This document shows, piece by piece, positions 6,694 to 48,122 of a stretch of 64,000 nt of DNA. Each line of letters opens with the position of its first letter. The stretch's first letter is position 1. The stretch is from the NCBI RefSeq assembly GCF_018919395.1, contig NZ_JAHLME010000001.1, positions 682,001-746,000 of the forward strand. The letters are read 5' to 3'. The notes below the pieces were generated by a model. The model saw only the letters and a program-made list of their open reading frames with translations, was not told the DNA's origin and did no database searches. Position numbers and translations under genes: made by a program. This DNA is from Geomonas azotofigens. Its GTDB lineage: Bacteria; Desulfobacterota; Desulfuromonadia; Geobacterales; Geobacteraceae.

Positions 6694-9435
6694 ATGGCCC
6701 AGGGTGAGTTGCGTTCGAGTTGGAAAGCGATGCTGGCGGCGCTGTCGCTTCTGGCGGCCATCCCGTTCCTGCTCCTGGAGCTGTTCGGCTCCACGCTGTA
6801 CCTCGTGCTGGACGTTTCCACCTACCTCACCTTGCACAACACCGTCGAGCTTTTCAGCGTTTTTGTCTCCCTCTCCATCTTCGGGGTGGGGTGGTTCTCC
6901 TACAACCAAAGCCGCGACCGGCATACCCTGTTCCTCGCCGTGGCCTTTCTCGGCATCGGCCTCATGGACTTAATGCACACCCTGGCCTACCCGGGGATGC
7001 CCGACCTGATCACCCACAACTCCCCCAACAAGTCCACCCAGTTCTGGATCGTCGTGCGCACCTTCTCCGCCGCCGCCTTCCTTTTGAGCGCCTTCGTGGA
7101 CGAACAGTGCCGGTGCCGGTGGCTGGGGAGGCTGCCGCTCCTGGCGGGGGTGCTCGCCGTCGCCGCGATCTCCTTCTGGGCCATCATCTTTCATCCCGAC
7201 CTGGTGCCGGACACCTTCGTGCCGGGGGTGGGGCTCACCCCCTTCAAGAAGGCGTCCGAGCTGGTCATCATCGCCCTGCTGGTGCTGGCCGCCCTGGCCT
7301 ACCTGCGACGGCTGCGCAACTCCCGGGACGGCATCTACCTCTACTACCTGAGCGCCTTCATCCTCTGCATCGTAAGCGAGCTCGCCTTCACCGCCTACAA
7401 GAGCGCGTTCGACAGCTACAACGTCCTCGGGCACCTGTACAAGCTGTTCGCCTTCCTGCTGATCTACCAGGGCATCTTCGCCGCCGCGATCCAGCGCCCC
7501 TACCGGCAGTTCCGTCTCACCCTCGGGGAGTTGCGCCACACCAACGACCTCCTCGTGCACATCATGGACTCGATCCCGCACTGCATCTTCTGGAAGGACC
7601 GCGACAGCGTCTATCTTGGCTGCAATCGCGAGTTCGCCAGGAGCGCGGGATTGGCCGATCCCGCCGATATCGTGGGAAAATCCGACTACGACCTCCCCTG
7701 GAGCCGGGAGGAGTCCGAGGGGTACCTGGCCGACGACCGGGAGGTGATGCGGAGCAACCAGGCGAAGATGCACATCATCGAGAAGCTGACCCCGGCGGAC
7801 GGCAGCGTCATCTGGATCGACACCAGCAAGATGCCGCTGGTCGACGAGGAGGGCGCGGTGCGGGGGGTGCTCGGCATCTACGAGGACATCACGGCCAGAA
7901 AGCTCGCCGAGGAACGGCTCTCCGAGACGCTGCAGTTCAACCAGGAGATCATCAACTGCGCCCGGGAGGGGATCATCGTCTACGACCGGGAGTTGCGCTA
8001 CCTGGTCTGGAACCCGTACATGGAGGAGATCAGCGGCAAGCTGGCCGGCGAGGTCCTGGGCAGGCACCCCGCCGAGATCCTCCCCTGGCTCGTCGACAGC
8101 GGCGTGGTGTCCCGGCTGGAGCAGCTCGTGAGTGGCGCCGCCGTTCCCTCGGTGGTGGAATTCATGGCCACCGACCTCAGGGGGAAGACGATGTGGCTCT
8201 CCGACGCCTCCGCCCCCTTGCGCAGCAGCTCCGGTGACATCATCGGGATCATCGGCACGGTGCGCGACATCACCGAGCGGCGCGGCATCGAGGAGCAATT
8301 GCGCCAGGCCCAGAAGCTCGAGTCGGTGGGACGGCTGGCGGGCGGCGTGGCGCACGATTTCAACAACAAGCTCACCGTGATCATGGGGAGCGCCGAGTTG
8401 GCGTTGCGGCAGGCCCGGGACGCCTCGCTTTTGGAGTACCTGCGCCTGATCGTCAAGGCCGCGGAACAGTCCCGGGACATCACCACGCAGTTGCTCGCCT
8501 TCTCGCGCCAACAGGTGGTAACGCCCAGGAGCGTGCAGGTGAACAGCATGCTGCAGGAGTTCAAGAAGTCGCTCGGGCGCCTGATCGGGGAGGACATCGC
8601 CATCGTGCTGGCGCCGGGGGAGGAGCTCTGGAACATCAGCATCGACCCGGTGCAACTGGACCAGATCGTCATGAACCTCGTGGTGAACGCGCGCGACGCC
8701 ATGCCGCAGGGGGGAACCATCACCCTCGAGACGGCGAACGTGCAGTTCGAGGAGGCCCCCTCCCGGCACCCGGAGGCGCCGCCGGGAGCATACGTGAGGA
8801 TCACCTGCCGGGACACCGGCGTGGGGATCGACGCCGCGACCCGCGCCCATATCTTCGAGCCCTTCTACACCACCAAGGAGCAGGGGAAGGGGACCGGGCT
8901 CGGTCTCGCCACCGTGTACGGCATCGTCAGGCAAAACGGCGGCTTCATCGACCTCGAGACCACTCCGGGGTGCGGGAGCGCGTTCAGCATCTTGCTGCCG
9001 AGGTGCGTCGGCGGGGACGAGAACCACGAGCCGGTGCGGCGGTTGGAGCCGGGGCGGGGGGCGGGAACCGTGCTCCTGGTCGAGGACGAGGATATGGTGC
9101 GCGAGCTGACCGCGGGGCTCCTCGAAGCCCTGGGTTACCGCTGCCTGGCCACGGCCGATCCGCGGGAGGCGCTGGAGGTGGCGGCCAACCCCGAGGTCGC
9201 CATCGACCTGGTGCTCACCGACGTGCTCATGCCCGGCATGCGTGGACAGGAAATGATGGAGCGGATGCGGCGCCAGCGCCCCGGGATCAAGTGCATCTAC
9301 ATGTCCGGCTTCACCGACGCCATCCTCGACGGGCAAAGCGCGGGGCAGGAGGGGGCGGCTTTCCTGAAGAAGCCGTTCCAGATGGAAGAACTGGCGCAGA
9401 TGGTGGGGGCGGTGCTGGACGGGCGCCCGCGCTGA
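6694..9435 (+). CDS. MASE3-PAS-PAS hybrid histidine kinase with C-terminal receiver
   Basis: 913-residue membrane sensor kinase. The first 270 residues are a MASE3-type multi-helix membrane sensor (FLGIGLMDLMHTLAYPGM is characteristic). Two PAS domains follow (about 285-405 and 415-530). The dimerisation helix carries the phospho-histidine in GGVAHDFNNKL (about 552). The ATPase domain has the N-box NLVVNARDAM, DTGVGID and GTGLGLATVYG. A receiver domain from about 790 has its acceptor Asp in VLTDVLMPG and the conserved Lys in FLKKPF. No HPt or separate output regulator follows, so the receiver may act internally or pass phosphate elsewhere. GGAGG lies eight bases before the ATG. The gene starts 41 bases after the ATPase gene and may share its transcript. 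Confidence 0.93.
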   Translation: MAQGELRSSWKAMLAALSLLAAIPFLLLELFGSTLYLVLDVSTYLTLHNTVELFSVFVSLSIFGVGWFSYNQSRDRHTLFLAVAFLGIGLMDLMHTLAYPGMPDLITHNSPNKSTQFWIVVRTFSAAAFLLSAFVDEQCRCRWLGRLPLLAGVLAVAAISFWAIIFHPDLVPDTFVPGVGLTPFKKASELVIIALLVLAALAYLRRLRNSRDGIYLYYLSAFILCIVSELAFTAYKSAFDSYNVLGHLYKLFAFLLIYQGIFAAAIQRPYRQFRLTLGELRHTNDLLVHIMDSIPHCIFWKDRDSVYLGCNREFARSAGLADPADIVGKSDYDLPWSREESEGYLADDREVMRSNQAKMHIIEKLTPADGSVIWIDTSKMPLVDEEGAVRGVLGIYEDITARKLAEERLSETLQFNQEIINCAREGIIVYDRELRYLVWNPYMEEISGKLAGEVLGRHPAEILPWLVDSGVVSRLEQLVSGAAVPSVVEFMATDLRGKTMWLSDASAPLRSSSGDIIGIIGTVRDITERRGIEEQLRQAQKLESVGRLAGGVAHDFNNKLTVIMGSAELALRQARDASLLEYLRLIVKAAEQSRDITTQLLAFSRQQVVTPRSVQVNSMLQEFKKSLGRLIGEDIAIVLAPGEELWNISIDPVQLDQIVMNLVVNARDAMPQGGTITLETANVQFEEAPSRHPEAPPGAYVRITCRDTGVGIDAATRAHIFEPFYTTKEQGKGTGLGLATVYGIVRQNGGFIDLETTPGCGSAFSILLPRCVGGDENHEPVRRLEPGRGAGTVLLVEDEDMVRELTAGLLEALGYRCLATADPREALEVAANPEVAIDLVLTDVLMPGMRGQEMMERMRRQRPGIKCIYMSGFTDAILDGQSAGQEGAAFLKKPFQMEELAQMVGAVLDGRPR

Positions 9436-9457
9436 GGCTTCGCGGAGAGGGACGGAG

Positions 9458-9958
9458 TCAGCGGGGCGAGCCGAGCGAGCGCAGGAAGCGGACCAGCGGC
9501 CAGCGGTGGCCGGGTGGGACCACCCGTTCCAGTACCGGCTCGTGGCCGGTCCCGGTCAGCATGGCGCGCAGCAGTTGTCCGTCGCCGTAGGCGGCGATCC
9601 TAGGGAGGCGCAGGTCGGCGGGGCGGGGGACATAGCTGTTGCCGACCGGGCCGTCGCCGGCTCCGGTGTCGCCGTGGCAGAACGCGCAGTAATAGCCGTA
9701 GTAGACCCTCCCCTGCGTGATGGCGACCGGGGTCGCCGGGACCGGGTTGACCAGGGCTGCGGCCTCGGCCTCACCGGGAGCCCGGTCCGGCCGTGGCGTG
9801 ACACTCACCGTCCCCGGCGCCGGTGCCGGGAGCACCATCTGGAACTCCCGCACGTGGTGCTGCACCGTCATGCGCGGCCCGCGGACCAGGATGTACCCGA
9901 ACAGCACCGTCCCCAAGAGAGGGGGCGCCAGCACCATGAAGACCGCCAGCTTTTTCAT
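9458..9958 (-). CDS. Membrane-anchored monoheme cytochrome c (ActE-like)
   Basis: 166 residues. An uncleaved N-terminal anchor (LAVFMVLAPPLLGTVLFGYI) is followed by a Pro/Ala-rich linker and one class I cytochrome domain with the heme site CAFCH inside YYGYYCAFCHGDTGAGDGPVG. The position resembles ActE, the small cytochrome of alternative complex III. The usual distal methionine is not obvious: the region where a GxMP loop is expected reads GHEPVLERVVPPGHRW, so the sixth ligand could be a His. It is the last gene of the minus-strand respiratory operon and overlaps its upstream neighbour by four bases (ATGA). It probably carries electrons between complex III and the oxidase, but this is inferred from position. 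Confidence 0.85.
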   Translation of the reverse strand: MKKLAVFMVLAPPLLGTVLFGYILVRGPRMTVQHHVREFQMVLPAPAPGTVSVTPRPDRAPGEAEAAALVNPVPATPVAITQGRVYYGYYCAFCHGDTGAGDGPVGNSYVPRPADLRLPRIAAYGDGQLLRAMLTGTGHEPVLERVVPPGHRWPLVRFLRSLGSPR

Positions 9959-10242
9959 CTATTCCCCCCCTGTTTCCCCCTTGGCGTCGGCGGCAGCGGC
10001 ACCGCCTCCGGCAGCGGCAGGATCTGACGCTGCGCCTTTCGTTGCGGCTGCTCGCTGGAGTACATCGACTCCGCCGGGGCGTCCGGGAGCTGTCCGAAGT
10101 CCCAGCGCCGGGGCGCGTCCTGGACCAGCAGGTACACCAGGGAGCCGAACCCCATGATGGCGCCGCTGAAGGCGATCAGGATCACCCACTCCCAGGGGGA
10201 GCGCAGGTCCTGGTGCTCGTCGTAATCGGGCTTTTGTTCCAT
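9955..10242 (-). CDS. Small single-pass membrane protein of the ACIII/oxidase operon
   Basis: 95 residues, unrecognised. An acidic N-terminus (KPDYDEHQDL) leads into one hydrophobic helix (about 17-40), then a polar Pro/Gln-rich tail. It overlaps the following cytochrome gene by four bases and starts seven bases after the preceding gene ends, so it is translated as part of the respiratory operon. A small stabilising subunit of the oxidase or complex III is the simplest reading. No heme or metal motif is present. Confidence 0.75.
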   Translation of the reverse strand: MEQKPDYDEHQDLRSPWEWVILIAFSGAIMGFGSLVYLLVQDAPRRWDFGQLPDAPAESMYSSEQPQRKAQRQILPLPEAVPLPPTPRGKQGGNR

Positions 10243-10249
10243 GGTCGCC

Positions 10250-10531
10250 TCACCAGTTGGGGGGGACGGCGTGGTTTTGCGTGACCTCGAACAGGGTGAA
10301 CGCCATGCAGGCCCCGAACAGGATGATGATCACCCAGGGCATGAAGCTGCGCAGCCGGCGCAGGAAGCTAACCGGTCCGCGCACCTTGATCTTCTCGCTC
10401 TGCTTCTCGACGCCGCGCGGCAGCCAGAGCGCCTGGTAGGTGAGCGCCGTGAGCAGCACCAGCGCCGCCCCGGCGCAGAGGGCGATGACCAGCCACTGGT
10501 TCTGCAGCACGTACAGGTAGAGCATCAGCAT
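10250..10531 (-). CDS. Small two-helix membrane protein of the ACIII/oxidase operon
   Basis: 93 residues with two membrane helices: about 12-32 (LVIALCAGAALVLLTALTY) and about 68-86 (WVIIILFGACMAFTLFEV). They are joined by a basic cytoplasmic loop (RGVEKQSEKIKVRG). I do not recognise a family. Location inside the respiratory operon, between the CcoS-like gene and another small membrane protein, suggests an accessory subunit or assembly factor of the terminal oxidase. The minus-strand ATG is preceded by GGAGG. Confidence 0.75.
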   Translation of the reverse strand: MLMLYLYVLQNQWLVIALCAGAALVLLTALTYQALWLPRGVEKQSEKIKVRGPVSFLRRLRSFMPWVIIILFGACMAFTLFEVTQNHAVPPNW

Positions 10532-10568
10532 GACGTCCTCCTAACCACAATAGCCCTCGGCCTTGGGC

Positions 10569-10605
10569 TTCCCCCTCCCTAGCCCTCCCCCTCCAGGGGA
10601 GGGGA
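10569..10605. repeat. GC-rich palindromic repeat inside the CcoS-like tail (copy 1)
   Basis: TTCCCCCTCCCTAGCCCTCC CCCTCCAGGGGAGGGG. Its minus-strand reading supplies the last codons of the CcoS-like frame. Confidence 0.85.
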
Positions 10606-10917
10606 CGATGGACCTGCGCATGATCCACCAACTGCGCTTCGGAAGTCTCCACCTCTGCTGTCACTGCATTGCGCCTGGCCCCTTCCCCCGGAGGGGGGAG
10701 GTCGGGAGGGGGGGCTGTCGTCTTTGCTCCTGTTGCTGGTGCTATTACACTCCTCCGGTATGCCGCTATCCAGCGCCAGGTAGCGGGCCCGCTCCTGGTC
10801 CGCGAACTGTCCCGACCGCACCCCCCACAGGAAGAAGACGATCAGCATCCCGCACATCAAGAGCGGGAAGCACATCCAGATGAACAGGAAAGCCGGTGTA
10901 TCCAACGCGCTGTTCAT
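10579..10917 (-). CDS. CcoS-like oxidase maturation protein with repeat-derived tail
   Basis: The first 57 residues hold one membrane helix followed by FFLWGVRSGQFADQERAR, which strongly resembles CcoS, the small protein needed to insert cofactors into cbb3 oxidase. The start at 10917 (MNSALDTP) is preceded by GGAGAG; an upstream in-frame ATG at 10941 lacks such a site. The remaining 55 residues (Ser/Pro/Gly-rich, containing RPPPSGGRG and SPPLEGEG) are translated from two copies of the dispersed GC-rich repeat, so the natural stop has probably been lost or displaced. The apparent 3' end of the upstream ccoO-like frame overlaps this gene by about 150 bases, which is another sign that this junction is disturbed. 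Confidence 0.7.
   Translation of the reverse strand: MNSALDTPAFLFIWMCFPLLMCGMLIVFFLWGVRSGQFADQERARYLALDSGIPEECNSTSNRSKDDSPPSRPPPSGGRGQAQCSDSRGGDFRSAVGGSCAGPSSPPLEGEG
10679..10714. repeat. GC-rich palindromic repeat inside the CcoS-like tail (copy 2)
   Basis: CCCCTTCCCCCGGAGGGGGG AGGTCGGGAGGGGGGG. Opposite sense to copy 1, 73 bases away. Confidence 0.85.
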
Positions 10918-12082
10918 GTCTCTCTCCAGTTCCAGTCCCACTCCCCTTGCGGGAGGGGGTTAGGGGGGGCGGTGCCATCATAGTCATATGTGCGGCTTCA
11001 TCCATCTGCTCCTCCCCCCGGAGGGGGGAGGCTGGGAGGGGGGGCGCCAGCGACGTTCCCCCCCCCCCCCCCCCCCCCCCCCGGGGGGGGGGGCGAGGCG
11101 GGCCCGGCACCGCCGGGGGGGGGGGGGGGGTCTGCCATTCTCCCTCGTAGGAGGCGTCGATGCCGCGCGGTTCCGTGTTGGCGTCGGTATATCCCACGAA
11201 CGATACCGCCAGGTAATTGGCCAGGTCCCAGATCTTCTCGCTCTCCAGGTGCTTCTTGAAGTAGGGCATGGCGGTGCCGGTGATGCCGTTCATGATCTGG
11301 TAGTAGAAGATCCCGCCGATGTACCTGTTCTCCACCAGGTGCCGCCTCAGGATGGTGAAGTTCAAGGGGGGCGGCCCCAGGAAGGGGTGCGCCGGCCCGT
11401 TGCCGTCGCCGATCGGGCTATGGCAGTTGATACAGAGCTGCTGGTAGATCCTCTTGCCGCGCTGCAGCGCCGCCTCGGTGGCCGGGTAGGGGTTGGGCAT
11501 CCGGCGCCACGCCTCGGGGACCTGGGCGTGCAGCCACTCGATGTTGCGGTCCACCCCTCCTGCGTAGGCGGCCTGCGCCTTGCGCTTCCACTCGCGCTGG
11601 CGCTTTTGGCGCACATCCGCATCCTTCCCCCCGAGCGCCTGCACGTACGCCGCCAGCGCAGCGATCTCGTGGTTGGTCAGGAAGTCCCAGGCCGGCATCA
11701 GCGAGATGGGGGTGGTGTAGCGCGGGTTGGTGAAGTGGGCGATGTTCCAGTCGTCGCTGTGCTCACCCCCTTCCTGGGACAGGTCCGGGCCGGTCCGCTC
11801 GCTGCCGAGAATGGCGGGTTCGATCCCGGCGTAGTCTCCCGCACGGGCGATCCTTTCCGCCCCGATGTCCCAGTCGTTGACCCGGATGAAGAGGGAATGG
11901 CAGTAACTGCAGCCGTTTTTCACGTAGAGGCGGTGCCCCTCCCGCTCCAGGGGGGAAAGCGGCCGCCAGATGTCGCTGGGGGTGTCCTTCATGGTCAGCG
12001 AGGGGAGCCCGACGATGATGAAGGTGGAGGCCCAGAAGACCAGCAGCGCGCCGACGATGAGGAAGGCCGGTGTCATCTTCAT
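10766..12082 (-). CDS. ccoO: cbb3-type oxidase subunit II (CcoO-like) fused to a second monoheme domain; 3' end unreliable
   Basis: Residues 1-175 are CcoO-like: an N-terminal anchor helix, heme site CSYCH, then SERTGPDLSQEGG and SDDWNIAHFTNPR, ending in a Met ligand region (SLMPAW). Residues 200-310 add a second cytochrome domain with CINCH, GDGNGPAHPF and Met in TAMPYF, so one polypeptide covers CcoO and part of CcoP function. Similarity ends near residue 318 (YEGEWQ, about base 11130). Beyond that, the frame runs through G16, G11 and C25 homopolymers and two dispersed repeats, giving Pro/Gly runs and over 80 residues of low-complexity tail. The true stop is probably near 11130. The start overlaps ccoN by four bases (ATGA). 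Confidence 0.88.
   Translation of the reverse strand: MKMTPAFLIVGALLVFWASTFIIVGLPSLTMKDTPSDIWRPLSPLEREGHRLYVKNGCSYCHSLFIRVNDWDIGAERIARAGDYAGIEPAILGSERTGPDLSQEGGEHSDDWNIAHFTNPRYTTPISLMPAWDFLTNHEIAALAAYVQALGGKDADVRQKRQREWKRKAQAAYAGGVDRNIEWLHAQVPEAWRRMPNPYPATEAALQRGKRIYQQLCINCHSPIGDGNGPAHPFLGPPPLNFTILRRHLVENRYIGGIFYYQIMNGITGTAMPYFKKHLESEKIWDLANYLAVSFVGYTDANTEPRGIDASYEGEWQTPPPPPAVPGPPRPPPRGGGGGGGGTSLAPPLPASPLRGEEQMDEAAHMTMMAPPPLTPSRKGSGTGTGERHEQRVGYTGFPVHLDVLPALDVRDADRLLPVGGAVGTVRGPGAGPLPGAG
10937..10971. repeat. GC-rich repeat upstream of the CcoS-like gene
   Basis: CCCACTCCCCTTGCGGGAGG GGGTTAGGGGGGGCG, a diverged copy just before the ribosome site. Confidence 0.7.
11010..11045. repeat. GC-rich palindromic repeat in the ccoO 3' region
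   Basis: CTCCTCCCCCCGGAGGGGGG AGGCTGGGAGGGGGGG, twelve bases from the C25 homopolymer. Confidence 0.85.
11058..11130. repeat. C25-G11 and G16 homopolymer tracts
   Basis: 25 C (11058-11082) run directly into 11 G (11083-11093), and 16 G follow at 11115-11130. Nothing else in the window is comparable. Length errors here would shift the ccoO frame. Confidence 0.9.
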
Positions 12083-13464
12083 GCCGCCTCCTCGCCGCGC
12101 AGCAGTGGCTCTTCCTCCCGCGCCGGGCGCAGGGTCAGGTACAGGTTGGCCAGACCCACCAGCGAACCGGTAAGGATGAAGACCCCGAGCGCCGCCCGCA
12201 TCACCATGAAGGGTGACAACTGCGGCAGCACCCGCAGCACCGTCTCGCCGTTATGCCAGGCGCTCCCCTGCACCAGCCCGGCCATGGTCAAGACCACGAA
12301 GAACCCGGTCAGGCCGAAGGTGATCAGGCCGAACTGCAGGTTGATCAGCTTGTTGGAATAGACCGGGCGTCCGCTCACCAGGGGGAGCACGTGCCACATG
12401 GCGCCCAGCGCGATGTAGCCGCCGAAGCCGAGCATGGCGATATGGGCGTGCCCCACGGTCCAGTTGTTGAAATGGGTGACCCGCTGCAGGAAGGGGAGCG
12501 ACTGCAGCGGGCCCTGGATGCAGGTGATGATGTACCAGACGATCCCCCCCATCACCAGCCGGGCCGGCGGATCGTTCCAGACCCTCCCGCCGAAGCCGCG
12601 CGCGGTGAGCCAGAGGTTGATCACCACGATGGAGACGGGGAGGATCATGGAGACCGAGTCGACCACCGACACGGTCTTCAGCCAGTTGGGTATGGGGGAC
12701 TGCAGCACGTGATGGCCGCCGATGTGGCTGTAGAGCGCGATCAGGAACCAGAAGCCCAATAGCGACAGCGTGTGCGAGTTGAGCGGGGTGCGGGTGACCC
12801 GGGGGATCACGAAGTAGGCGGCGCCGGTGGCGAGCGGCGTGATCAGAAGCCCGGGGAGGTTGTGCCCCCAGAACCAGAGGAACAGGGAATCGATCAGCCC
12901 CGGCATGGCGCCGGTGGCGGGGTGCCACATCACGTTCCCCAAGGGATAGTTGCTGGCAGTCCAGAGGAAGGTGGCCATGAAGTACCAGATGGAGACGTAG
13001 AGCTGCGGCTCGCGGCGGTTCACGATGGTGAGCGCCGTGTTGACGATGAGGCAGGCGACGGCGATGACCAGCGAGACGTCGGCGAGCCAGACGTACTCGT
13101 TGTACTCGCGTCCCTGGGTGAACCCGAAGGCGAACCCCACCGGGCCGCTCAGCACGGTGAGGTTCCAGAACAGGAAGGCGACCCAGGCCAGGGGCTCCGA
13201 CCAGAGCCTGGTCTTGAGCAGGGCCGGGAGGTAGTAGAGGCCGACCCCGACCAGCATGGTGCCGGTGAAGCCATAGAGCATGGTGTTCACGTGCACCGGG
13301 CGCTCCCGCCCGAACACCAGGGGCGCCACGTGGGGCAGGAACTCCGGCGCCACCAGGTGGATCGCCGAGAACATGCCGTAGACGGCACCCACCACGAACC
13401 AGACCGCGCCCGCGACCATGAAGGCGAGCGCCGCACTCTGGGGTTTGTGGAAAAACTTGGTCAT
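12079..13464 (-). CDS. ccoN: cbb3-like cytochrome c oxidase catalytic subunit I
   Basis: 461-residue heme-copper oxidase core with about 12 membrane helices. Diagnostic C-family segments are GHNLPGLLITPLATGA, ALYSHIGGHHVLQSPIPNW and NNWTVGHAHIAMLGFGG. They provide the CuB histidines, the heme ligands and, at the same spacing as in Pseudomonas cbb3, a Tyr seven residues before the HH pair that could form the His-Tyr cross-link. Reduction of O2 at the inner membrane is therefore expected. It lies between the pentaheme actA gene and the ccoO-like gene, so its electrons probably come directly from alternative complex III. GAGGAA precedes the ATG. Subunits CcoP, CcoQ and the CcoGHI set are absent from the window. 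Confidence 0.92.
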   Translation of the reverse strand: MTKFFHKPQSAALAFMVAGAVWFVVGAVYGMFSAIHLVAPEFLPHVAPLVFGRERPVHVNTMLYGFTGTMLVGVGLYYLPALLKTRLWSEPLAWVAFLFWNLTVLSGPVGFAFGFTQGREYNEYVWLADVSLVIAVACLIVNTALTIVNRREPQLYVSIWYFMATFLWTASNYPLGNVMWHPATGAMPGLIDSLFLWFWGHNLPGLLITPLATGAAYFVIPRVTRTPLNSHTLSLLGFWFLIALYSHIGGHHVLQSPIPNWLKTVSVVDSVSMILPVSIVVINLWLTARGFGGRVWNDPPARLVMGGIVWYIITCIQGPLQSLPFLQRVTHFNNWTVGHAHIAMLGFGGYIALGAMWHVLPLVSGRPVYSNKLINLQFGLITFGLTGFFVVLTMAGLVQGSAWHNGETVLRVLPQLSPFMVMRAALGVFILTGSLVGLANLYLTLRPAREEEPLLRGEEAA

Positions 13465-13536
13465 GGAAGTTTCCTCAGATCCTCTGTTGCCCCGAAAGGG
13501 GACTGGCTCCGCAGGTGCCTGTCCCTTTGCGCCGTG

Positions 13537-13622
13537 CTCCCTCCCCCGGAGGGGGAGGGCTGGGGAGGGGGAAGCAGGCGGTTGCGTCCCCCCTCCCGAC
13601 CTCCCCCCTCCGGGGGGAGGAG
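13537..13622. repeat. Inverted pair of GC-rich palindromic repeats between actA and ccoN
   Basis: Copies at 13537-13573 and, in opposite sense, 13587-13622. They lie inside the operon, where a long hairpin could influence mRNA stability or relative expression. Confidence 0.85.
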
Positions 13623-13635
13623 GTAACGGCGCGGT

Positions 13636-14208
13636 TTATCTGTGGCAGACGAAGCAGTCGTGGGTGACCTTGTTTGCCTTGTGGCACCGGATGCAGAAAC
13701 CCATCTCGAACTTGACCGCCCCCGCCACCCGGTCCATCTGACGGATATCACCGTGACAGTGGCCGCAGTCGATGCCGCGGCGCAGGTGCATGGAGTGGTC
13801 GAAATAGACGAATTCCGGCAGCCAGTTGACCCGCTGCCAGACCACCGGCTGGTTCTGCGCCACCAGCTCCCGCAGCCGCGCGATGTAGGGGTAGGTGCGG
13901 ATGACGCGGGAGTGGCAGAGCAGGCAGGTCTGCAGCGGCGGGATCCCCGCCCGGGACGAGCGCGTGGCACTGTCGTGGCACATGAAACAGCTGATGTGCT
14001 TTATCCCCGCGTGCACCCGGTGGCTGAACGGGATGGGCTGGCGCGGGCCGAGCCCGACCGGGTAAAGCCGGTCCAGGTACACCAGCGCGGCCAGCGCAGC
14101 GCACAGGATCGCCCCGGCGGCGACGGCGTTGGCCCACAGGGGAAAACCCCGCGGAGGCCCCCCCTGCTGCGGAGCCTTCGGGCTCTCTTGAATCCCCGCC
14201 GCCGTCAT
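13636..14208 (-). CDS. actA: Pentaheme cytochrome c, alternative complex III subunit ActA
   Basis: 190 residues. One N-terminal membrane helix (AVAAGAILCAALAALVYL) anchors a periplasmic domain with exactly five heme sites: CFMCH, CLLCH, CGHCH, CIRCH and CFVCH. Five hemes plus one anchor is the composition described for ActA of alternative complex III. His-rich spacing (FSHRVHAGIKHI and YFDHSMHLRRG) supplies likely distal ligands. The start overlaps the ActF stop by four bases. The gene order is unusual, because in classical operons actA comes first. Two dispersed GC-rich repeats separate it from ccoN. Confidence 0.88.
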   Translation of the reverse strand: MTAAGIQESPKAPQQGGPPRGFPLWANAVAAGAILCAALAALVYLDRLYPVGLGPRQPIPFSHRVHAGIKHISCFMCHDSATRSSRAGIPPLQTCLLCHSRVIRTYPYIARLRELVAQNQPVVWQRVNWLPEFVYFDHSMHLRRGIDCGHCHGDIRQMDRVAGAVKFEMGFCIRCHKANKVTHDCFVCHR

Positions 14209-15260
14209 GGCCGTCCCCCGTCAACCCGGCGCATCCAGGTCATGCCGAGCCCGAGCACGCCGGCGAAGCCCGCGGCCAGGGAAAGTTCGTGCAGTCCCAG
14301 CCGGGGCACCTGGTCGAAGGTCGGCGCCACCAGCCACCAGCGCTCCAGCCACAGCCCGCACAGCACCACGAACGAGATGATCCCCAGGGCCAGGCTGTTC
14401 CGTTTGGCGCGGATGGGAAGGAGCAGCACCAGCGGGCCGAAGTAGACCAGGGCCAGCAGGAGCGCGCTCACCGGCCTCCACTGCGCCCCGTGCAGGCGCG
14501 GCACGATGAAGCGGACCTCGCGCGGCAGGTTCTCGTACCAAAACGGCAACAGGTGCGCGTACATGAGGTAGGTGGTCATCAGGCTGAAGGCGACCATCAG
14601 CTTGCCCAGGTCGTGGAGCAGGTCCGGCTCCGCGTCGGGTTGGCGCGCGGCGAGCAGCGCCCAGCAGGTGATGCCGATGTAGAGCCCGGACATGAAGAAG
14701 TAGCCGCCGGCGAGGTTGCTGTGCCAGTACGGGTCGAGCGCCATGACGAGGTCGAAGCCGAGCAGGGAGAATACCAGGGAGTAGACCAGCACCAGGACCG
14801 TGCCGCTCGCTTTCCCGTCCCCGGTGCGGCGCTCTTTGCGGTGGTACAGCGCCATGCTCCAGAAAAGGAGCAGCGCCGCCAGGTCCCGTCCCAGCAGGAA
14901 GTCGGGATGGAGCCAGATGCCCTGGTGGTAGTGGATCCCCTGCCACGGTGCCCACAGGCCGTTGCCGGCCCACAGGAGTACCAGGGCGGCCAGCGACGGA
15001 AGCGCGAAGGAAAGCCCCGCCGTGGCGAGGCGCTCCGCCTTCAGGTGCCAGCGGCCGTTGCACGCCGCCACCATTGCGGGCCAGACCACGATGCCGCCCG
15101 CCAGCGAGGTGAAGAACAGGAAGTTCATCAAAAGCGAGCGCCACGCCCTGCGCTCCTCGGGGCCGTTCACGAGCACGAGCCAGACCGCGAACCCGGCGAC
15201 GGCCAGGATGATCCAGAGCGGCAGCCAGAGCTTTGCCAAGGGACGCTCACTGGTGGACAT
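14205..15260 (-). CDS. actF: Alternative complex III membrane subunit ActF
   Basis: 351-residue polytopic protein with about ten hydrophobic helices, Trp/Leu-rich, including VVWPAMVAACNGRWH and LYHRKERR. It resembles ActF, the second large integral subunit of alternative complex III that pairs with ActC in the quinol-oxidising membrane arm. The start at 15260 (MSTSERPLAKLWL) is set by GGAGG six bases upstream; an in-frame ATG at 15281 lacks this. It overlaps the end of the actCD fusion by 14 bases and the start of actA by four, so the three genes are tightly coupled. Assignment rests on topology and context as well as similarity. Confidence 0.82.
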   Translation of the reverse strand: MSTSERPLAKLWLPLWIILAVAGFAVWLVLVNGPEERRAWRSLLMNFLFFTSLAGGIVVWPAMVAACNGRWHLKAERLATAGLSFALPSLAALVLLWAGNGLWAPWQGIHYHQGIWLHPDFLLGRDLAALLLFWSMALYHRKERRTGDGKASGTVLVLVYSLVFSLLGFDLVMALDPYWHSNLAGGYFFMSGLYIGITCWALLAARQPDAEPDLLHDLGKLMVAFSLMTTYLMYAHLLPFWYENLPREVRFIVPRLHGAQWRPVSALLLALVYFGPLVLLLPIRAKRNSLALGIISFVVLCGLWLERWWLVAPTFDQVPRLGLHELSLAAGFAGVLGLGMTWMRRVDGGRP

Positions 15261-17118
15261 GGAATTCCTCCGGTCGGGCAAAAGAGAGCCGCTCCTTGAG
15301 CGCTTCGACCTGCTCGGGTCCGCAGCTCACCAGCAGGCCGAACTTGTCGCGCGAGAAGCGCGGGTCGTAGAAGGGGAGCGTCTCCAGGCGGAACAGGCGG
15401 GCCAGCAGCGCGAGCCCCAGGAGGTTGGCAAGGCTCCCGATCAGTATGGTCCCCTCGAAGCCGACCACGCAGAACGGGATCCAGGACAGGGGCGGTTTGC
15501 CCCCCACGATCAGGCGGTTCACCAGGGCCGTGCCGCCGGCGAGCCAGAAGCCGCCGATCAGGCCGGAAACGGCGCCGGCCAGGGTGAAGAGCCGCACCGG
15601 GCTCTTCTTCAGCTTCAGGACCTCGGGGAGCTGTTCGATCTTCACCGGCGAGAAGGTTTCCATGATCTCGAAGCCGCTGTCGCAGCAAAGCTTGGCGGCC
15701 GTTACCAGGCTGCCGGCGTTGGAAAAGACGGCCAGCACGGTGGGGCGGTGCTGTGGCAGCCTTTGGGCGACCCGGTTCAGGCAGGGCTGGGTCGGGGGGA
15801 TCTCCTCCTCGGCGATCTGCCCTTTCAGTTCGCTGAGCGGAACGGTGGGGAGTCCCCTCGTGAAGAGGACGAAGAAGAGGAAGAAGAAGCCGAAAGAGCC
15901 GGCGGTGATGGTCACCTCGACCCAGGTGGGGAGGTAGCGCCCGAAGTTGTGGGGGAGGAAGTCGTGGCCCTGCGCGGTGTAGATGATCATCAGGCGCTCG
16001 TACCACATGCCGACGTTGACCAGCAGCGAGATGACGAAAAGCGGCAGGTAGTGCGTGCGCAGGCGTTTGAAGACGAAGAGCCAGGGGACCAGCACGTTGC
16101 AGACCACGCAGAGCCAGTACATCCAGGCTACCGGCCCCAACACGCGCCACTTGTAGTTCTGCCACTCGACGCGGTCGCCGGAGTACCAGGCGATGAAGGC
16201 TTCCACGGCGTAGGCGTAGCCGACGATGGTGGCGGTGAGGATGATGGTTTTGGCCAGCATCTCGAAGTGGCGCATCTCGACCAGGCGCTCCAGGTGCAGC
16301 AGCTTGCGCATCGGGATCAGCAGGGTGAGCACCATGGCGAGCCCGGAGTGGATGGCGCCGGCCACGAAGTAGGGGGGGAAGATGGCGCTGTGCCATCCCG
16401 GCAGGAGGCTCATGGCGAAGTCCCAGGAGACCACCGAGTGCACCGAGACCACCAGGGGCGTGGCCAGCGCCGCGAAGAAGAGGTAGGAGCGGCCGTAGTG
16501 GTGCCACTGGCTCCCCGAGCCGGACCACCCCAGGGAGAGGGCGCGGTAGATGCGGCTTTTCAGGTGTTCCGGGCCCAACTGGACGCGGTAGCGGTCCCGC
16601 GCCGCCGCGAGGTCCGGGATCATGCCGATGTACCAGAAGATGAGGCTCACGGTGAGGTAGGTGGAGACGGCGAGAACGTCCCAGACCAGCGGGCTCACGA
16701 AGTTGGGCCAGAGCTGTCGTTGCGAGGGATAGGGGACGATGTAGTAGCAGGCCCAGAGTCGGCCCAGGTGGATGAGCGGGAACAGGCCGGCGGTCATGAC
16801 GGCGAAGATGGTCATCGCCTCGGCCGAGCGCGACACGGCGTCGCGCCACTTGGCGCGCAGCAGGTAGAGGATGGCGGAGATCAGGGTCCCGGAGTGCGCG
16901 ATACCGACCCAGAAGACGAAGTTGGTGATGTAGACCGCCCAGCCGATGGGGCGGTTCAGACCGGTCACCCCCATGCCCGCCTGGGTCTGGTACATGAGGC
17001 AGAGCGCGCCGAGTCCCGCCAGGCCGGCCAGGGAGACCACGGCCAGGTAGAACGCGAAGCCGGGTTTCTCCATGGCGTTCAGCACGTCGTCGTTGATTTG
17101 GCCGTAGCTTGGCGGCAC
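15247..17118 (-). CDS. actC: Fused ActC-ActD subunit of alternative complex III
   Basis: 623 residues. Residues 1-435 form an NrfD/PsrC-type ten-helix domain (ActC) with the quinone-site segments WVGIAHSGTLISAILYLL and PLVVSVHSVVSWDF. Residues 440-623 form an ActD (DUF3341) domain: a Rossmann-like HRPTVLAVFSNAGSLVTAA part, then two helices and the LPFYDPRFSRDKFGL signature. ActC and ActD are normally separate proteins, so this is a fusion. The start codon is GTG (17118), seven bases after AGGAG. Function: binding and oxidation of menaquinol in the inner membrane together with ActB and ActF. Confidence 0.9.
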   Translation of the reverse strand: MPPSYGQINDDVLNAMEKPGFAFYLAVVSLAGLAGLGALCLMYQTQAGMGVTGLNRPIGWAVYITNFVFWVGIAHSGTLISAILYLLRAKWRDAVSRSAEAMTIFAVMTAGLFPLIHLGRLWACYYIVPYPSQRQLWPNFVSPLVWDVLAVSTYLTVSLIFWYIGMIPDLAAARDRYRVQLGPEHLKSRIYRALSLGWSGSGSQWHHYGRSYLFFAALATPLVVSVHSVVSWDFAMSLLPGWHSAIFPPYFVAGAIHSGLAMVLTLLIPMRKLLHLERLVEMRHFEMLAKTIILTATIVGYAYAVEAFIAWYSGDRVEWQNYKWRVLGPVAWMYWLCVVCNVLVPWLFVFKRLRTHYLPLFVISLLVNVGMWYERLMIIYTAQGHDFLPHNFGRYLPTWVEVTITAGSFGFFFLFFVLFTRGLPTVPLSELKGQIAEEEIPPTQPCLNRVAQRLPQHRPTVLAVFSNAGSLVTAAKLCCDSGFEIMETFSPVKIEQLPEVLKLKKSPVRLFTLAGAVSGLIGGFWLAGGTALVNRLIVGGKPPLSWIPFCVVGFEGTILIGSLANLLGLALLARLFRLETLPFYDPRFSRDKFGLLVSCGPEQVEALKERLSFARPEEFHVHQ

Positions 17119-17182
17119 AGGTGCTCTCCTTTGTCGGGCGTCGGACCGGTCAGACTAGGCTGGCTAGTCGGACCAATCTGAG

Positions 17183-20089
17183 TCAGACCAGGTCGTTGTC
17201 CACCCGCCGAAGGAACGTCACCGCGGGCTTGGTGTTCAGCTCGTGCAGCAGGTGGTAGCGGCGAGGGTCGCCGCGAGTGATCCTGGTGACCTGGGCGCCG
17301 GGGTCGAGCAGGTCGCCGAAGGTGAAGACCCCGGCCGGGCAGGTCTGGGCGCAGGCGGGGACCACCTCGCCGTCCGCGAGCTTGCGCCCCTCCCGCGCGG
17401 CACGGTACTCGGCCTGCCGGATGCGCTGCACGCAGAAGGTGCACTTCTCCATGACCCCGCGCTGGCGCACCGTCACCTCGGGGTTCAACTGCAAATCCAG
17501 GGGCTTTCTCCACTCCAGGTTGACCCAGTTGAAGCGGCGCACCTTGTAGGGGCAGTTGTTGGAGCAGTAGCGGGTGCCGATGCAGCGGTTGTAGATCTGG
17601 GCGTTCAGCCCCTCCTCGTTGTGCACGGCGGCGAACACGGGGCAGACCGGCTCGCACGGGGCTGCATCACAGTGCTGACAGTGCAGCGGCAGCCAGGCGT
17701 AGCGCCAGGGGCTCCCGGGGACCCGGTACGGGGGGACGCGCAGCCACGCCATCTCCCGGCCGTCCGCGACCAGCTCCGGGCCGATCACGGGGACGTTGTT
17801 TTCCGCGTAGCACGCGACGGCGCAGGCGCCGCAGCCGATGCAGCGCTGCAGGTCGATCACCATGGCCCAGCGGTGCTTGGCGTGTTCGTGCTTCGGGTAG
17901 AGGTCCCGGTCCGCGTGGTACCCCTCGGGGAGCGGGAGGTCGAATTCTGCCCTGGGCGGGTTGGCGGCGCGCAGCACCGACAGCGGTACCGACTGGAGCA
18001 GGTCGCGGTGCAACTGCTCCCGGCGCAGCGCGGTCCGTATCGGACGGGGGGCGTCGCCGGCGACCCGGCTGACCCGGCAGGGGGTGAAAAAACCGGACCG
18101 TTGCACGGCGTCGAGCAGGAGGAAGGCGTTCGACCCCACCCCCCTCGCGTTCTTGCCCAGGGCGCTGTGCCCCTGGCCGAGGCCGATGGCGGCGCTGAGC
18201 TCGTGGATCTCCGTGGTGAGGCGGGCCGGCGCCCGCAGCGAGCCGGCGACGGTGGTGAGCTGCACCAGGTCCCCCTCCTCGATGCCCAGCGCCGCTGCTT
18301 TCTTGGGATGCAGATCGATCCAGTTCCCCCAGACGATGAAGGTGATCGGGTCGGGCGCTTCCTGTAGCCACCCCCGGTTGGACAGGCGTCCGTCGTAGAG
18401 CATGATCGAGGCCCAGGGCCACAGTTCCACATCCTCGACCCGCGCCGTTGCCGGTGGCCGCTGCGCCTGGAAAGAGAGCCCTGCCAGGCGCGGGGCGGGC
18501 GCCGCGCCCACAGCTGGCAGCGTTGTAGGCCATGTCCCTCCCGTTCTGAGCGCGGCCTGCCAACCACGCTCCGCATCGTCACCTCCGCCCCCGAAACCGC
18601 GCCGTTCCTTGAGCCACTGCAGCAGGTCCGTTGGCCTCGTGCCGCGCGGGGTCCGAAGCGGCCTCCCCGCCTGCCGGGCCAGCGCGATCAGGATGTCGCC
18701 GGCGTTGCGGGAATCGTAGAGGCGCCCCATCACCGGCTGCATCAGGCCATCCACCCCAGGTTCAGGCTGGTATTCGCCCCACGATTCAAGCGGCGTGTCG
18801 GTCGGGAGCACCCAACGCGCCAGTTCCGCCGTCTCGTTCAGCTGGGTCCCCAGGTACACCACCATCCCGGCCCGCGCCAGCCGCTCCACGGCTCCCGTCC
18901 GGGAGTAGGCGGGGTTGGCGTCGAGGACGAAGAGGACGTCCTGCGGGGCCAGGGAGGACAAGAACAGCTCCAGTTCTGCCTCCCGGGCGCTGTTACTGAG
19001 GGCGTGGGGGCGGGAGAAATCCACCGTGGTGCCGATCGCCCCCACGGCGTAGTTGAGCAGGGCGGCGCAGAGGGCGGTGTCGGTGGCGGCCGGGCCGCTG
19101 CCGTACTGCGGTCCCGCCAGAGCGACGGGGCGGCGTGCCGAGCTGAAGCCGCGGGCGACCGTGACTAGGAGCTCTTGGTCCAGCGCGGGAAGGGGGGCGG
19201 ACTTGAGCAGGGCCTCCAGTGCCGGCCGGACCGGGCCCGGATCGTTCCTGTTCCAGCCCCGGTCCATGATCACCCTGAGCAGGGTCGCCGCCACCACCGG
19301 GAGCTGCCGGGGGGATACCTGGACGAAATGGTCGGCGTTGCTGGCGGTCATGGAGAGGCGCGGCCCCAGGTAGGCCATCCGGGCCGGCGAGCTCCCTTCC
19401 CGGTAGGCGCGGCCGTCGGAGAACTGCCGGGCCTGGCGCACCGGCGAACCCCACGTTTCCAGGAAATCCGCGGCAAAGCTCACGATGAAATCGCTCCCTT
19501 CCAAGTCGTAGCGGGGGATGACGGGGAGACCGAAGAGCTGCTGGTGGGCGGCGCGGAGGGCTTCGTAGTTGAAGGGTTCGTAGTAAAGGAGACGGTCCGA
19601 GCCGAAGGCCGCGGCAAAGGAGCGCAGCACCTCGGCCTGGGCTCCGGTCTGCAGGGTGGAGAGCAGCGCCACCCGCCCTCCTGAGGCGAGCCGGGTGGAG
19701 ATGGAGTCGAGGGCCTCCTGCCAGCTTTTCGGCCGCAGCTTCCTGCCGCTGCGGTAGAGCGGCGTGGTGACCCGGTCCGGGTCGTAGAGCCCCTGCAGCG
19801 AGGACTGTCCGCGCGGGCAGAGCGTACCCCGGTTGACCGGGTGCGCGGGGTTCCCCTCCGCCTTGGTGGCGCGGCCGTCGCGGTTGGCCACGTGCATGCC
19901 GCAGCCGGCGGGGCATTCCCGGCAGGTCGTGGCGTAATAGGTCCAGTCGCCAGGCATGATCTGCTCCGGCGGGATCACCTTGGGGATCAGCTTGTTGACC
20001 AGCTTGCGCGGCGGGTCAGTCGCCAGCGCGATGCTGCTCCCCCCGGTGATCCACAAGAAGGTGCGTCTGGACATCTCGGTCATCGGCAT
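17183..20089 (-). CDS. actB: Alternative complex III iron-sulfur/molybdopterin-like subunit ActB
   Basis: 968 residues. A Tat signal (SRRTFLWITGGSS) opens the protein. An N-terminal cluster motif follows (CRECPAGCGMHVANRDG ... CPRG), then a molybdopterin-oxidoreductase-like fold to about residue 690. A ferredoxin-like C-terminal part (ActB2) has several cysteine sets: CIGCGACAVAC, CQHCDAAPCEPVCPV, CIGTRYCSNNCPYKVR and CTFCVQRI. This B1-B2 fusion is standard for ActB, which normally binds Fe-S clusters but no molybdenum. The first gene of the minus-strand respiratory operon, it is preceded by a plausible promoter at 20146-20173. An alternative start at 20083 is in frame. Confidence 0.92.
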   Translation of the reverse strand: MPMTEMSRRTFLWITGGSSIALATDPPRKLVNKLIPKVIPPEQIMPGDWTYYATTCRECPAGCGMHVANRDGRATKAEGNPAHPVNRGTLCPRGQSSLQGLYDPDRVTTPLYRSGRKLRPKSWQEALDSISTRLASGGRVALLSTLQTGAQAEVLRSFAAAFGSDRLLYYEPFNYEALRAAHQQLFGLPVIPRYDLEGSDFIVSFAADFLETWGSPVRQARQFSDGRAYREGSSPARMAYLGPRLSMTASNADHFVQVSPRQLPVVAATLLRVIMDRGWNRNDPGPVRPALEALLKSAPLPALDQELLVTVARGFSSARRPVALAGPQYGSGPAATDTALCAALLNYAVGAIGTTVDFSRPHALSNSAREAELELFLSSLAPQDVLFVLDANPAYSRTGAVERLARAGMVVYLGTQLNETAELARWVLPTDTPLESWGEYQPEPGVDGLMQPVMGRLYDSRNAGDILIALARQAGRPLRTPRGTRPTDLLQWLKERRGFGGGGDDAERGWQAALRTGGTWPTTLPAVGAAPAPRLAGLSFQAQRPPATARVEDVELWPWASIMLYDGRLSNRGWLQEAPDPITFIVWGNWIDLHPKKAAALGIEEGDLVQLTTVAGSLRAPARLTTEIHELSAAIGLGQGHSALGKNARGVGSNAFLLLDAVQRSGFFTPCRVSRVAGDAPRPIRTALRREQLHRDLLQSVPLSVLRAANPPRAEFDLPLPEGYHADRDLYPKHEHAKHRWAMVIDLQRCIGCGACAVACYAENNVPVIGPELVADGREMAWLRVPPYRVPGSPWRYAWLPLHCQHCDAAPCEPVCPVFAAVHNEEGLNAQIYNRCIGTRYCSNNCPYKVRRFNWVNLEWRKPLDLQLNPEVTVRQRGVMEKCTFCVQRIRQAEYRAAREGRKLADGEVVPACAQTCPAGVFTFGDLLDPGAQVTRITRGDPRRYHLLHELNTKPAVTFLRRVDNDLV

Positions 20090-20145
20090 GCCCCCGGATG
20101 TTTCTCATCGCATCAATGAAAGGTAAGATGAAAAAAGATTAACCT

Positions 20146-20173
20146 TTTGTATCAAGGTCGCCCGCCTTGTCAA
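20146..20173 (-). promoter_or_regulatory. Putative sigma70 promoter of the actB operon
   Basis: Read on the minus strand: TTGACA (20173-20168), 16-base spacer, TACAAA (20151-20146). It lies 57 bases before the actB ATG, in a 186-base divergent intergenic region. Prediction by consensus only. Confidence 0.5.
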
Positions 20174-20202: not shown

Positions 20203-20230
20203 TTGACAACGAAAGTCCGGTTCCTAGACT
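20203..20230 (+). promoter_or_regulatory. Putative sigma70 promoter of the TPP-enzyme gene
   Basis: TTGACA (20203-20208), 16-base spacer, TAGACT (20225-20230), 45 bases before the ATG at 20276. It lies back to back with the actB promoter, so a regulator bound between them could affect both. Confidence 0.55.
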
Positions 20231-47558: not shown

Positions 47559-48122
47559 ATGGCAAAGAACACGGCAGTTTTCGGCATCTACCGCAGCCGC
47601 GACAGCGTCGAGCAGGCAGTCGACTCGCTGCGCGCGGCGGACTTCCGTAACACCGACATCTCGGTGCTGTTCTCCGAGAACGTCGGCACCAAGGATTTCG
47701 CCCACGAAAAGCACACCAAGGTCCCGGAAGGGTCGACCGCGGGCGCGAGTACCGGTGCGGTGATCGGCGGTGCGCTCGGCTGGCTCTCCGGTATCGGCGC
47801 ACTGGCCATCCCGGGCGTCGGCCCCTTCATCGCCGCGGGCCCGATCGTCGCGGCCCTGGCAGGTGTTGGCGCAGGCGGGGTCATCGGCGGGGTCGCGGGG
47901 GCGCTCATCGGCATGGGCATCCCCGAGTACGAGGCCAAGCGCTACGAGGGACGCGTCAAGGAAGGGGGTATCCTCCTTTCGGTGCACTGCGACAACGCGG
48001 ACTGGAAAAAGCGCGCCATCGAGATCCTGAAGCAAACCGGTGCGACCGATATCGGGTCCGAGGGGGAGTCCAAGGCGGACTTCGCCAGCTCCGATAAGCC
48101 AAAGCCGAGGGGCATGGCGTAG
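47559..48122 (+). CDS. General-stress-type protein with glycine-rich hydrophobic core
   Basis: 187 residues. The N-terminal part (FGIYRSRDSVEQAVDSLRAA) and C-terminal part (GGILLSVHCDNADWKKRAIE) form a ferredoxin-like alpha/beta domain as in YflT/DUF3341-like stress proteins. Between them is a Gly/Ala/Ile-rich segment (about 60-120, two helical hairpins) that may insert into the membrane. AAAGGAGG precedes the ATG. Function unknown; context suggests envelope stress. Confidence 0.75.
   Translation: MAKNTAVFGIYRSRDSVEQAVDSLRAADFRNTDISVLFSENVGTKDFAHEKHTKVPEGSTAGASTGAVIGGALGWLSGIGALAIPGVGPFIAAGPIVAALAGVGAGGVIGGVAGALIGMGIPEYEAKRYEGRVKEGGILLSVHCDNADWKKRAIEILKQTGATDIGSEGESKADFASSDKPKPRGMA

Follow-up and report, generated by a model that had tools for sequence, protein, structure and literature searches.

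Geomonas azotofigens (Geobacterales, Desulfobacterota) encodes an alternative complex III (ACIII) and a C-family haem-copper oxidase in a single gene block. The block (the cassette) lies on the minus strand of a 64,000-nucleotide stretch of contig NZ_JAHLME010000001.1 (the window) and runs from position 20089 to 9458. The pairing of an ACIII with this separate lineage of C-family oxidase is real, conserved and under-described, and parts of it are already in print. The cassette probably encodes a dedicated menaquinol:oxygen oxidoreductase, as judged from its predicted proteins, in which the two halves are predicted to operate together, with no soluble cytochrome c between them. They would likely form a physical supercomplex.

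If this is true, metal-respiring and other mostly anaerobic Desulfobacterota have a direct route from quinol to oxygen, and ACIII supercomplexes extend from A-family to C-family oxidases. The analysis also names a CcoN lineage that database sources now file as ordinary cbb3. It yields a testable prediction on the place of ActE in the electron path.

The source genome of the window contains 4.97 Mb. Its nearest named relatives are Geomonas, and the CcoN of G. anaerohicana is 98% identical. The cassette contains ten genes:

17183..20089, minus strand: ActB, with a molybdopterin-oxidoreductase-like domain fused to an iron-sulfur domain (Pfam); best PDB match 6f0k_B (3.3e-132)
15247..17118, minus strand: ActC (NrfD-type quinol subunit) and ActD in one fused protein (P0002; PDB and Pfam)
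14205..15260, minus strand: ActF, a second NrfD-like membrane subunit, named by position and orthology
13636..14208, minus strand: ActA, a pentaheme c-type cytochrome with five CxxCH; matches PDB 8k9e_A, 6f0k_A, 6lod_A and 6btm_A
12079..13464, minus strand: CcoN of a separate C-family lineage; matches cbb3 CcoN chains in PDB
11117..12082, minus strand: CcoO with a second cytochrome c domain (diheme, two CxxCH); Pfam FixO and Cytochrome_CBB3
10753..10917, minus strand (conserved part; the frame continues to 10579): CcoS-like assembly protein; TIGR00847 at 34.5 bits (cut-off, 28.35)
10250..10531, minus strand: first small protein, probably with two membrane helices; no family assigned
9955..10242, minus strand: second small protein, with one hydrophobic stretch and a conserved WDFGQLPDTPAESIYST-like part; no family assigned
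9458..9958, minus strand: monoheme ActE-like cytochrome c; best match of a 14-row profile is ActE 6f0k_E (E=6.8e-19)

An earlier sequence-only reading had listed these ten genes with this strand, order and extent, and all of it held. Identities were assigned by PDB, Pfam, NCBIfam and profile matches, and ActF by position. ActF has no match in the Pfam or NCBIfam family libraries; its profile picks out the same slot in the loci of relatives. The ActC half of the fusion matches PDB 6f0k_C over residues 24-438 (2.3e-133). The ActD half matches PDB 6lod_D over residues 461-605 and Pfam ActD at 129.8 bits. ActA has a single hydrophobic N-terminal stretch (residues 27-45), and ActB carries SRRTFL near its start, which we take to be a twin-arginine-like motif. 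The fused molybdoenzyme-like and iron-sulfur domains of ActB, the ActC and ActD homologues and the pentaheme ActA are those of an ACIII.

The ten proteins include no Pfam match to FixP and thus no CcoP, and no soluble cytochrome gene is among the ten. The two small proteins were considered as remnants of CcoP or CcoQ. This was rejected for want of Pfam or PDB support; in some database sources the second carries the name FixQ, FixH or cbb3 subunit.

Conserved gene order

Close CcoN proteins were sought in 97 genomes (the source genome and 96 relatives). They were retrieved from 26, the source genome and 25 others, at 75-98% identity. The matches near 30% identity in these genomes are canonical CcoN. 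Across the phylum, 21 of 395 Desulfobacterota genomes hold the lineage, the source genome included. We compared 48 loci: the window, the 25 relatives, two named loci (L075 and L076) and 20 from other families of the phylum. L066-L074 were dropped as named copies of genomes already in the set. L077 was left out of the cassette profiles and kept as a canonical row in the trees.

The order ActB-C-D-F-A-CcoN-O-S, the two small proteins and ActE is found on one strand with all 11 domains in 25 of the 48 loci. Sixteen further loci are complete except for the first small protein, which has diverged and escapes the profile. In nine distant loci inspected, its slot contains an open reading frame that measures 87-119 residues from stop to stop and shows two hydrophobic stretches on visual inspection. 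L124 has no match for either small protein. Five loci are cut by contig ends (L059, L115, L116, L117 and L128). L116 and L117 were scored as order-broken, most likely because the ActE profile matched the cytochrome domain of CcoO. In each of the 46 loci with both ActA and CcoN, ActA comes immediately before CcoN. ActC and ActD form one protein in Geobacterales and L075 and are separate elsewhere.

ActD accompanies this CcoN in 20 of 21 phylum genomes, compared with a presence in 59 of 395 overall (hypergeometric 2.5e-17, a value that ignores relatedness). The sole genome with this CcoN and no ActD (G136) has its contig cut at actA (L128).

Save for contig ends and one deletion, all 48 loci keep the act and cco genes together in one block, with one strand and one order. 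The sequence-only reading was right that actA adjoins a C-family oxidase gene and that the ActE-like gene comes last. The move of actA that it described is not particular to this lineage: the same order recurs in distant families of the phylum. Its view of the block as a dedicated quinol:oxygen module agrees with the single block, strand and order kept across the 48 loci.

The deletion is in Geomonas propionica (L053; same genome as L068), where ActB, ActD, ActF and ActA are missing by tblastn. At 8789-11377 of this locus, ActC (fusion residues 18-413) continues in frame into CcoN in an 862-aa frame, and the genes from CcoO to the ActE-like cytochrome are kept. The loss is either a real deletion or an assembly fault. 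In this locus the ActF profile probably matched ActC, a related protein.

Classical ACIII clusters of the phylum are arranged differently. We inspected 20 ActD loci (19 genomes) outside the cassette set, of 41 such matches (39 genomes). ActA heads the act run in 17 of the 18 loci where it is visible, as the sequence-only reading had stated for classical operons. The remaining one (L176) reads B-C-D-F-A up to the contig end and is probably of cassette type. In L164 and L179 the contig ends before ActA is reached. Downstream, 5 of the 20 loci (L163 and L165-L168) have a strong CoxA match of caa3 type, and L177 has a weak one.

Linkage outside the phylum is based on protein labels (Planctomycetes, Hydrogenedentes and Calditrichia) and on L075, a locus of unstated phylum. 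Viral contigs gave 28 pattern matches and no relative of the cassette. The 379 plasmid records that matched were all below 60% identity.

The CcoN lineage

CcoN scores 247.4 bits against the canonical ccoN equivalog TIGR00780, below the cut-off of 583.15. Its identity to the canonical CcoN that the source genome also encodes is 30%. A search for database relatives gave 1200 at E up to 1e-40 among 7998 candidates scored, and the best 120 are listed. Two trees were built, with 35 (98-row tree) and 20 (second tree) of these rows sampled. In the 98-row tree the lineage is one side of a starred branch, apart from both canonical groups. When named Rhizobium, Sinorhizobium and Azoarcus CcoN were added, it remained a single clade (support 100/99), which all 200 bootstrap trees recovered. 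This is the CcoN phylogeny that the sequence-only reading had proposed as a check on its cbb3-like, C-family oxidase. The oxidase is not an ordinary cbb3, as its CcoN forms a separate clade outside canonical CcoN. The sister group is unsure, as long branches may meet in the tree.

CcoN retains His58, His201, His251, His252, His339, His341 and Tyr245. We take the six histidines to be the metal ligands and the tyrosine to be that of the active site, with offsets to 3MK7 from the alignment. By these residues the protein belongs to the C-family oxygen reductases in the broad sense. The ligand histidines are kept in the best 120 database rows except for one row with Tyr at 251 and one with a gap at 58. 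All 46 locus rows and all 120 listed database rows have Tyr245. In the same rows position 247 is His, against Trp in 15 of 15 canonical rows. Elsewhere it is Trp in two named FixN, Phe in the orphan Sinorhizobium and Rhizobium gallicum proteins and Gln in Azoarcus. Gln317, which replaces the active-site Glu of cbb3, was rejected as a mark of the lineage; Gln also occurs in 10 of 15 canonical CcoN rows of the phylum.

Geobacterales and L075 cluster together in all three trees (CcoN, ActC and ActB), which is what a block moved or passed on in one piece would give. The remaining families make up a second group for ActC and ActB, while for CcoN they meet at an unresolved fork. The ActC and ActB trees were built without L053, L059, L128 and rows below 300 residues. 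The listed relatives of CcoN include sources labelled Planctomycetes, Hydrogenedentes and Calditrichia. Because the Geobacterales rows sit among database rows, some of them labelled as other phyla, the CcoN tree suggests transfer.

The orphan CcoN of Sinorhizobium was rejected as a member; it branches outside, on a long branch. An orphan cbb3-like pair on pSymA of Sinorhizobium meliloti (L185, 8815-11930) lies near genes for GroEL, SCO and a heavy-metal ATPase. Its CcoN has Gly for a conserved Trp, the variant described for Nitrospina and Sinorhizobium in PMC3578206.

Proposed electron path and alternatives

The proposed path is drawn from the solved ACIII and cbb3 enzymes. ActC would bind quinol, and the iron-sulfur clusters of ActB would take its electrons. 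The haems of ActA would carry them as a wire to the extra cytochrome c domain of CcoO, which would stand in place of CcoP and receive them directly or past ActE. Oxygen would be reduced at CcoN. For the two small membrane proteins a role in structure or in assembly is proposed, and ActE would be a structural or side-path subunit.

The ActE-like cytochrome bears on this path. The haem of Rhodothermus marinus ActE is His/Met, and the protein is held to be the direct donor to caa3 (PMC5928083). ActE is not universal in ACIII, according to PMC8552683. The cassette protein is ActE-like by profile, and CxxCH is kept in all cassette rows with an ActE match. The Met of the aligned column is mostly lost: 13 of 13 classical ActE rows have it, but of 44 readable cassette rows only L124 does. 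This Met would be the haem ligand of classical ActE, because the R. marinus haem is His/Met and the profile aligns with ActE 6f0k_E. At this column Geobacterales and L075 have GH[E/Q/G]P and the others have R[H/Q/S]P. A Met lies three residues later in L113, L128 and L129, and another ligand is possible. L116 and L117 (cut contigs with misplaced matches) were left out of the comparison, as were classical ActE matches below 40 bits; L115 has no match, and L126 is unreadable. The near cassette-wide loss of the usual haem ligand argues that ActA may donate directly, handing electrons to CcoO.

Known systems share much of this arrangement. ActA, B, C, D and E are homologous by sequence to those of the ACIII-caa3 of R. 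marinus and the ACIII-aa3 of Flavobacterium johnsoniae, and there too the act genes adjoin oxygen-reductase genes. In known cases of ACIII with an oxidase, quinol electrons reach the oxidase without a soluble carrier (PMC5928083 and PMC8552683). PMC5928083 reports or proposes both supercomplexes of ACIII with aa3 or caa3 oxidases and direct donation by ActE. The cassette differs in that its oxidase is C-family CcoN/O, not A-family. Its order is BCDFA-NOS-x-x-E (x, small protein) instead of actA first, its ActC and ActD are fused, and its ActE is without the usual Met. With the canonical cbb3 of P. stutzeri (3MK7) it shares the CcoN family, the metal ligands, the Tyr, CcoO and CcoS. Unlike that enzyme it has a CcoN of separate lineage, a diheme CcoO, His247 for Trp and no CcoP. 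Glu or Gln does not separate the two, as canonical CcoN of the phylum is also often Gln.

The Acidobacteria have an ACIII-A2 caa3 superoperon in which the ACIII genes are directly followed by the oxidase operon; its oxidase is an A2 caa3, and in the text available the cbb3 operons there are not placed with ACIII (PMC8407424). Parts of the cassette have been noticed before. Gbem_0121-0120 is given among two further cbb3 operons of G. bemidjiensis, as 'cytochrome cbb3/bb3' genes, and the passage available names only the oxidase genes (PMC2996986). ActE seems to be lacking from the ACIII cluster of Geobacter sp. M21, according to PMC8552683, which cites Refojo 2013. The G. bemidjiensis genes and the M21 cluster are probably the same locus in close relatives. 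Unlike the M21 cluster in that account, the cassette ends with a relative of ActE. A tree legend in PMC5492636 carries an 'unknown group' of haem-copper oxidases from Muntyan et al. 2015, which may be this CcoN lineage; Glu is called mandatory in authentic cbb3 there. Two ACIII-like clusters far from oxidase loci were taken as unrelated to oxygen in PMC9386147. We found no description of the cassette in the literature searched, which covered few subscription papers, and an earlier notice is quite possible.

Several points weigh against a single menaquinol:oxygen enzyme. Both the quinol:oxygen activity and the physical unit are predicted from the genes, and conserved synteny indicates co-selection, not physical contact. 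The halves can separate, as in G. propionica, where most of the act half is deleted and the cco and ActE-like genes are kept. Outside Geobacterales and L075, ActA has only four CxxCH (three in the cut L128). Inverted repeats at three junctions could split the transcript, and a consensus scan finds one terminator-like site at a repeat-bearing junction (10569-10552). The classical group falls between the two cassette groups in the ActB and ActC trees, with middling support, so that the ACIII half may have more than one origin.

A stronger form of the proposal is put forward tentatively. The oxidase may be a third lineage of C-family oxygen reductases that exists only as half of a menaquinol:oxygen oxidase. 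ActA would dock on the diheme CcoO that replaces CcoP, cytochrome c would be abolished, and ActE would be a structural or sensing haem with a changed ligand.

Another reading concerns the purpose of the unit. Growth by respiration may matter less than the removal of oxygen from a cell that is mostly anaerobic, or than a short route from pyruvate to oxygen. A divergent pyruvate-oxidase-like gene is found upstream in 18 of 24 Geobacterales loci with ActB, and the genome encodes other terminal oxidases (a CoxA-like protein, a canonical CcoN and two cytochrome bd). Such a purpose is less likely than not. The upstream stretch has no match in 6 of the 24 loci, in L075 or in L076, and PRK08273 names only a protein that requires thiamine pyrophosphate (TPP), with no defined substrate. 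This reading is compatible with a menaquinol:oxygen unit, not opposed to it.

It is unlikely that the block encodes two separate, co-regulated enzymes, with the ACIII reducing soluble or membrane-bound cytochromes c that serve this oxidase and others. Such an ACIII would have other possible partners in the genome, namely the oxidases just named and two cytochrome b matches (one with an internal stop). The three repeat-bearing junctions and the G. propionica deletion fit separate enzymes as well. Against separate enzymes are the order kept across 48 loci, the second haem domain on CcoO instead of a CcoP and the lack of a soluble cytochrome gene among the ten.

CcoN belongs to the same superfamily as the nitric oxide reductases, its lineage is divergent, and nitric oxide reduction is a side activity of some canonical cbb3 enzymes, but reduction of nitric oxide instead of oxygen is highly improbable for an enzyme that has cbb3-type CcoO and CcoS partners and keeps Tyr245 in every row counted above, as oxygen reductases do, where the NorB-like L004 of this genome has Phe.

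Junctions, upstream region and other genes

The sequence-only reading had overlaps of 4-14 bases tying most of the genes together. They were found at only 4 of the 9 junctions: 14 bases at ActCD/ActF (from the ATG at 15260) and 4 bases each at ActF/ActA, CcoN/CcoO and second small protein/ActE-like. Gaps of 64 bases separate ActB from ActCD, 7 bases the two small genes and 171 bases ActA from CcoN. The features between and beside the genes are as follows:

10571-10722, 11007-11092 and 13535-13622 (the last in the actA/ccoN gap): G+C-rich inverted repeat family between block genes
20146..20173, minus strand: sigma-70-like promoter TTGACA-16-TACAAA upstream of actB (consensus match only)
20133-20148: near-palindrome AAAAGGTTAATCTTTT, overlapping the promoter-like site of actB; a possible operator, present in the window and its nearest relatives
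20203-20230: promoter-like site TTGACA-16-TAGACT of the pyruvate-oxidase-like gene
20276-22066: TPP-dependent pyruvate-oxidase-like gene (PRK08273), divergent from actB

The repeats lie at ActA/CcoN, CcoO/CcoS and CcoS/first small protein. One repeat query gave 71 listed matches elsewhere in the genome, many of them the same place read on both strands; scores were computed for 40 of 101 candidates. The median ActA/CcoN gap is 53 outside Geobacterales and 145.5 inside, and that of CcoO/CcoS is -21 outside and 130.5 inside (starts approximate). Because the gaps are shorter outside Geobacterales, the repeats seem to have been inserted late into a block that was already packed. The consensus scan found 11 terminator-like sites, compared with 5.5 expected, and several are inside genes.

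The ccoO frame continues to 10766 through runs of poly-C (25, plus strand) and poly-G (16) at 11058-11131. Four near relatives (L036, L037, L038 and L052) have ordinary sequence and a stop codon here, with neither run. The runs are likely due to faulty assembly, and because of them the stop codon is missing at its usual position. The last residues of CcoO are unreliable because the frame crosses this stretch.

Promoter-like sites similar to that of actB are present in 18 of 21 Geobacterales upstream stretches, a sample from the 24 loci with ActB. No sigma-54-like or FNR-like site was found upstream of actB in the window, and across the 21 rows stray sigma-54-like matches occur in 3 and FNR-like matches in 0.

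A second ACIII in the window was also rejected. A weak ActD match (47577-48053; 29.8 bits) lies in a glycine-rich protein of 187 aa (47559-48122), whose neighbours were viewed only as an ORF list. The genome also encodes two further COX1-family proteins, L004 (NorB-like, from the Phe at its Tyr site) and L005 (an 806-residue frame). As a guess, the pyruvate-oxidase-like protein could feed quinol to the cassette.

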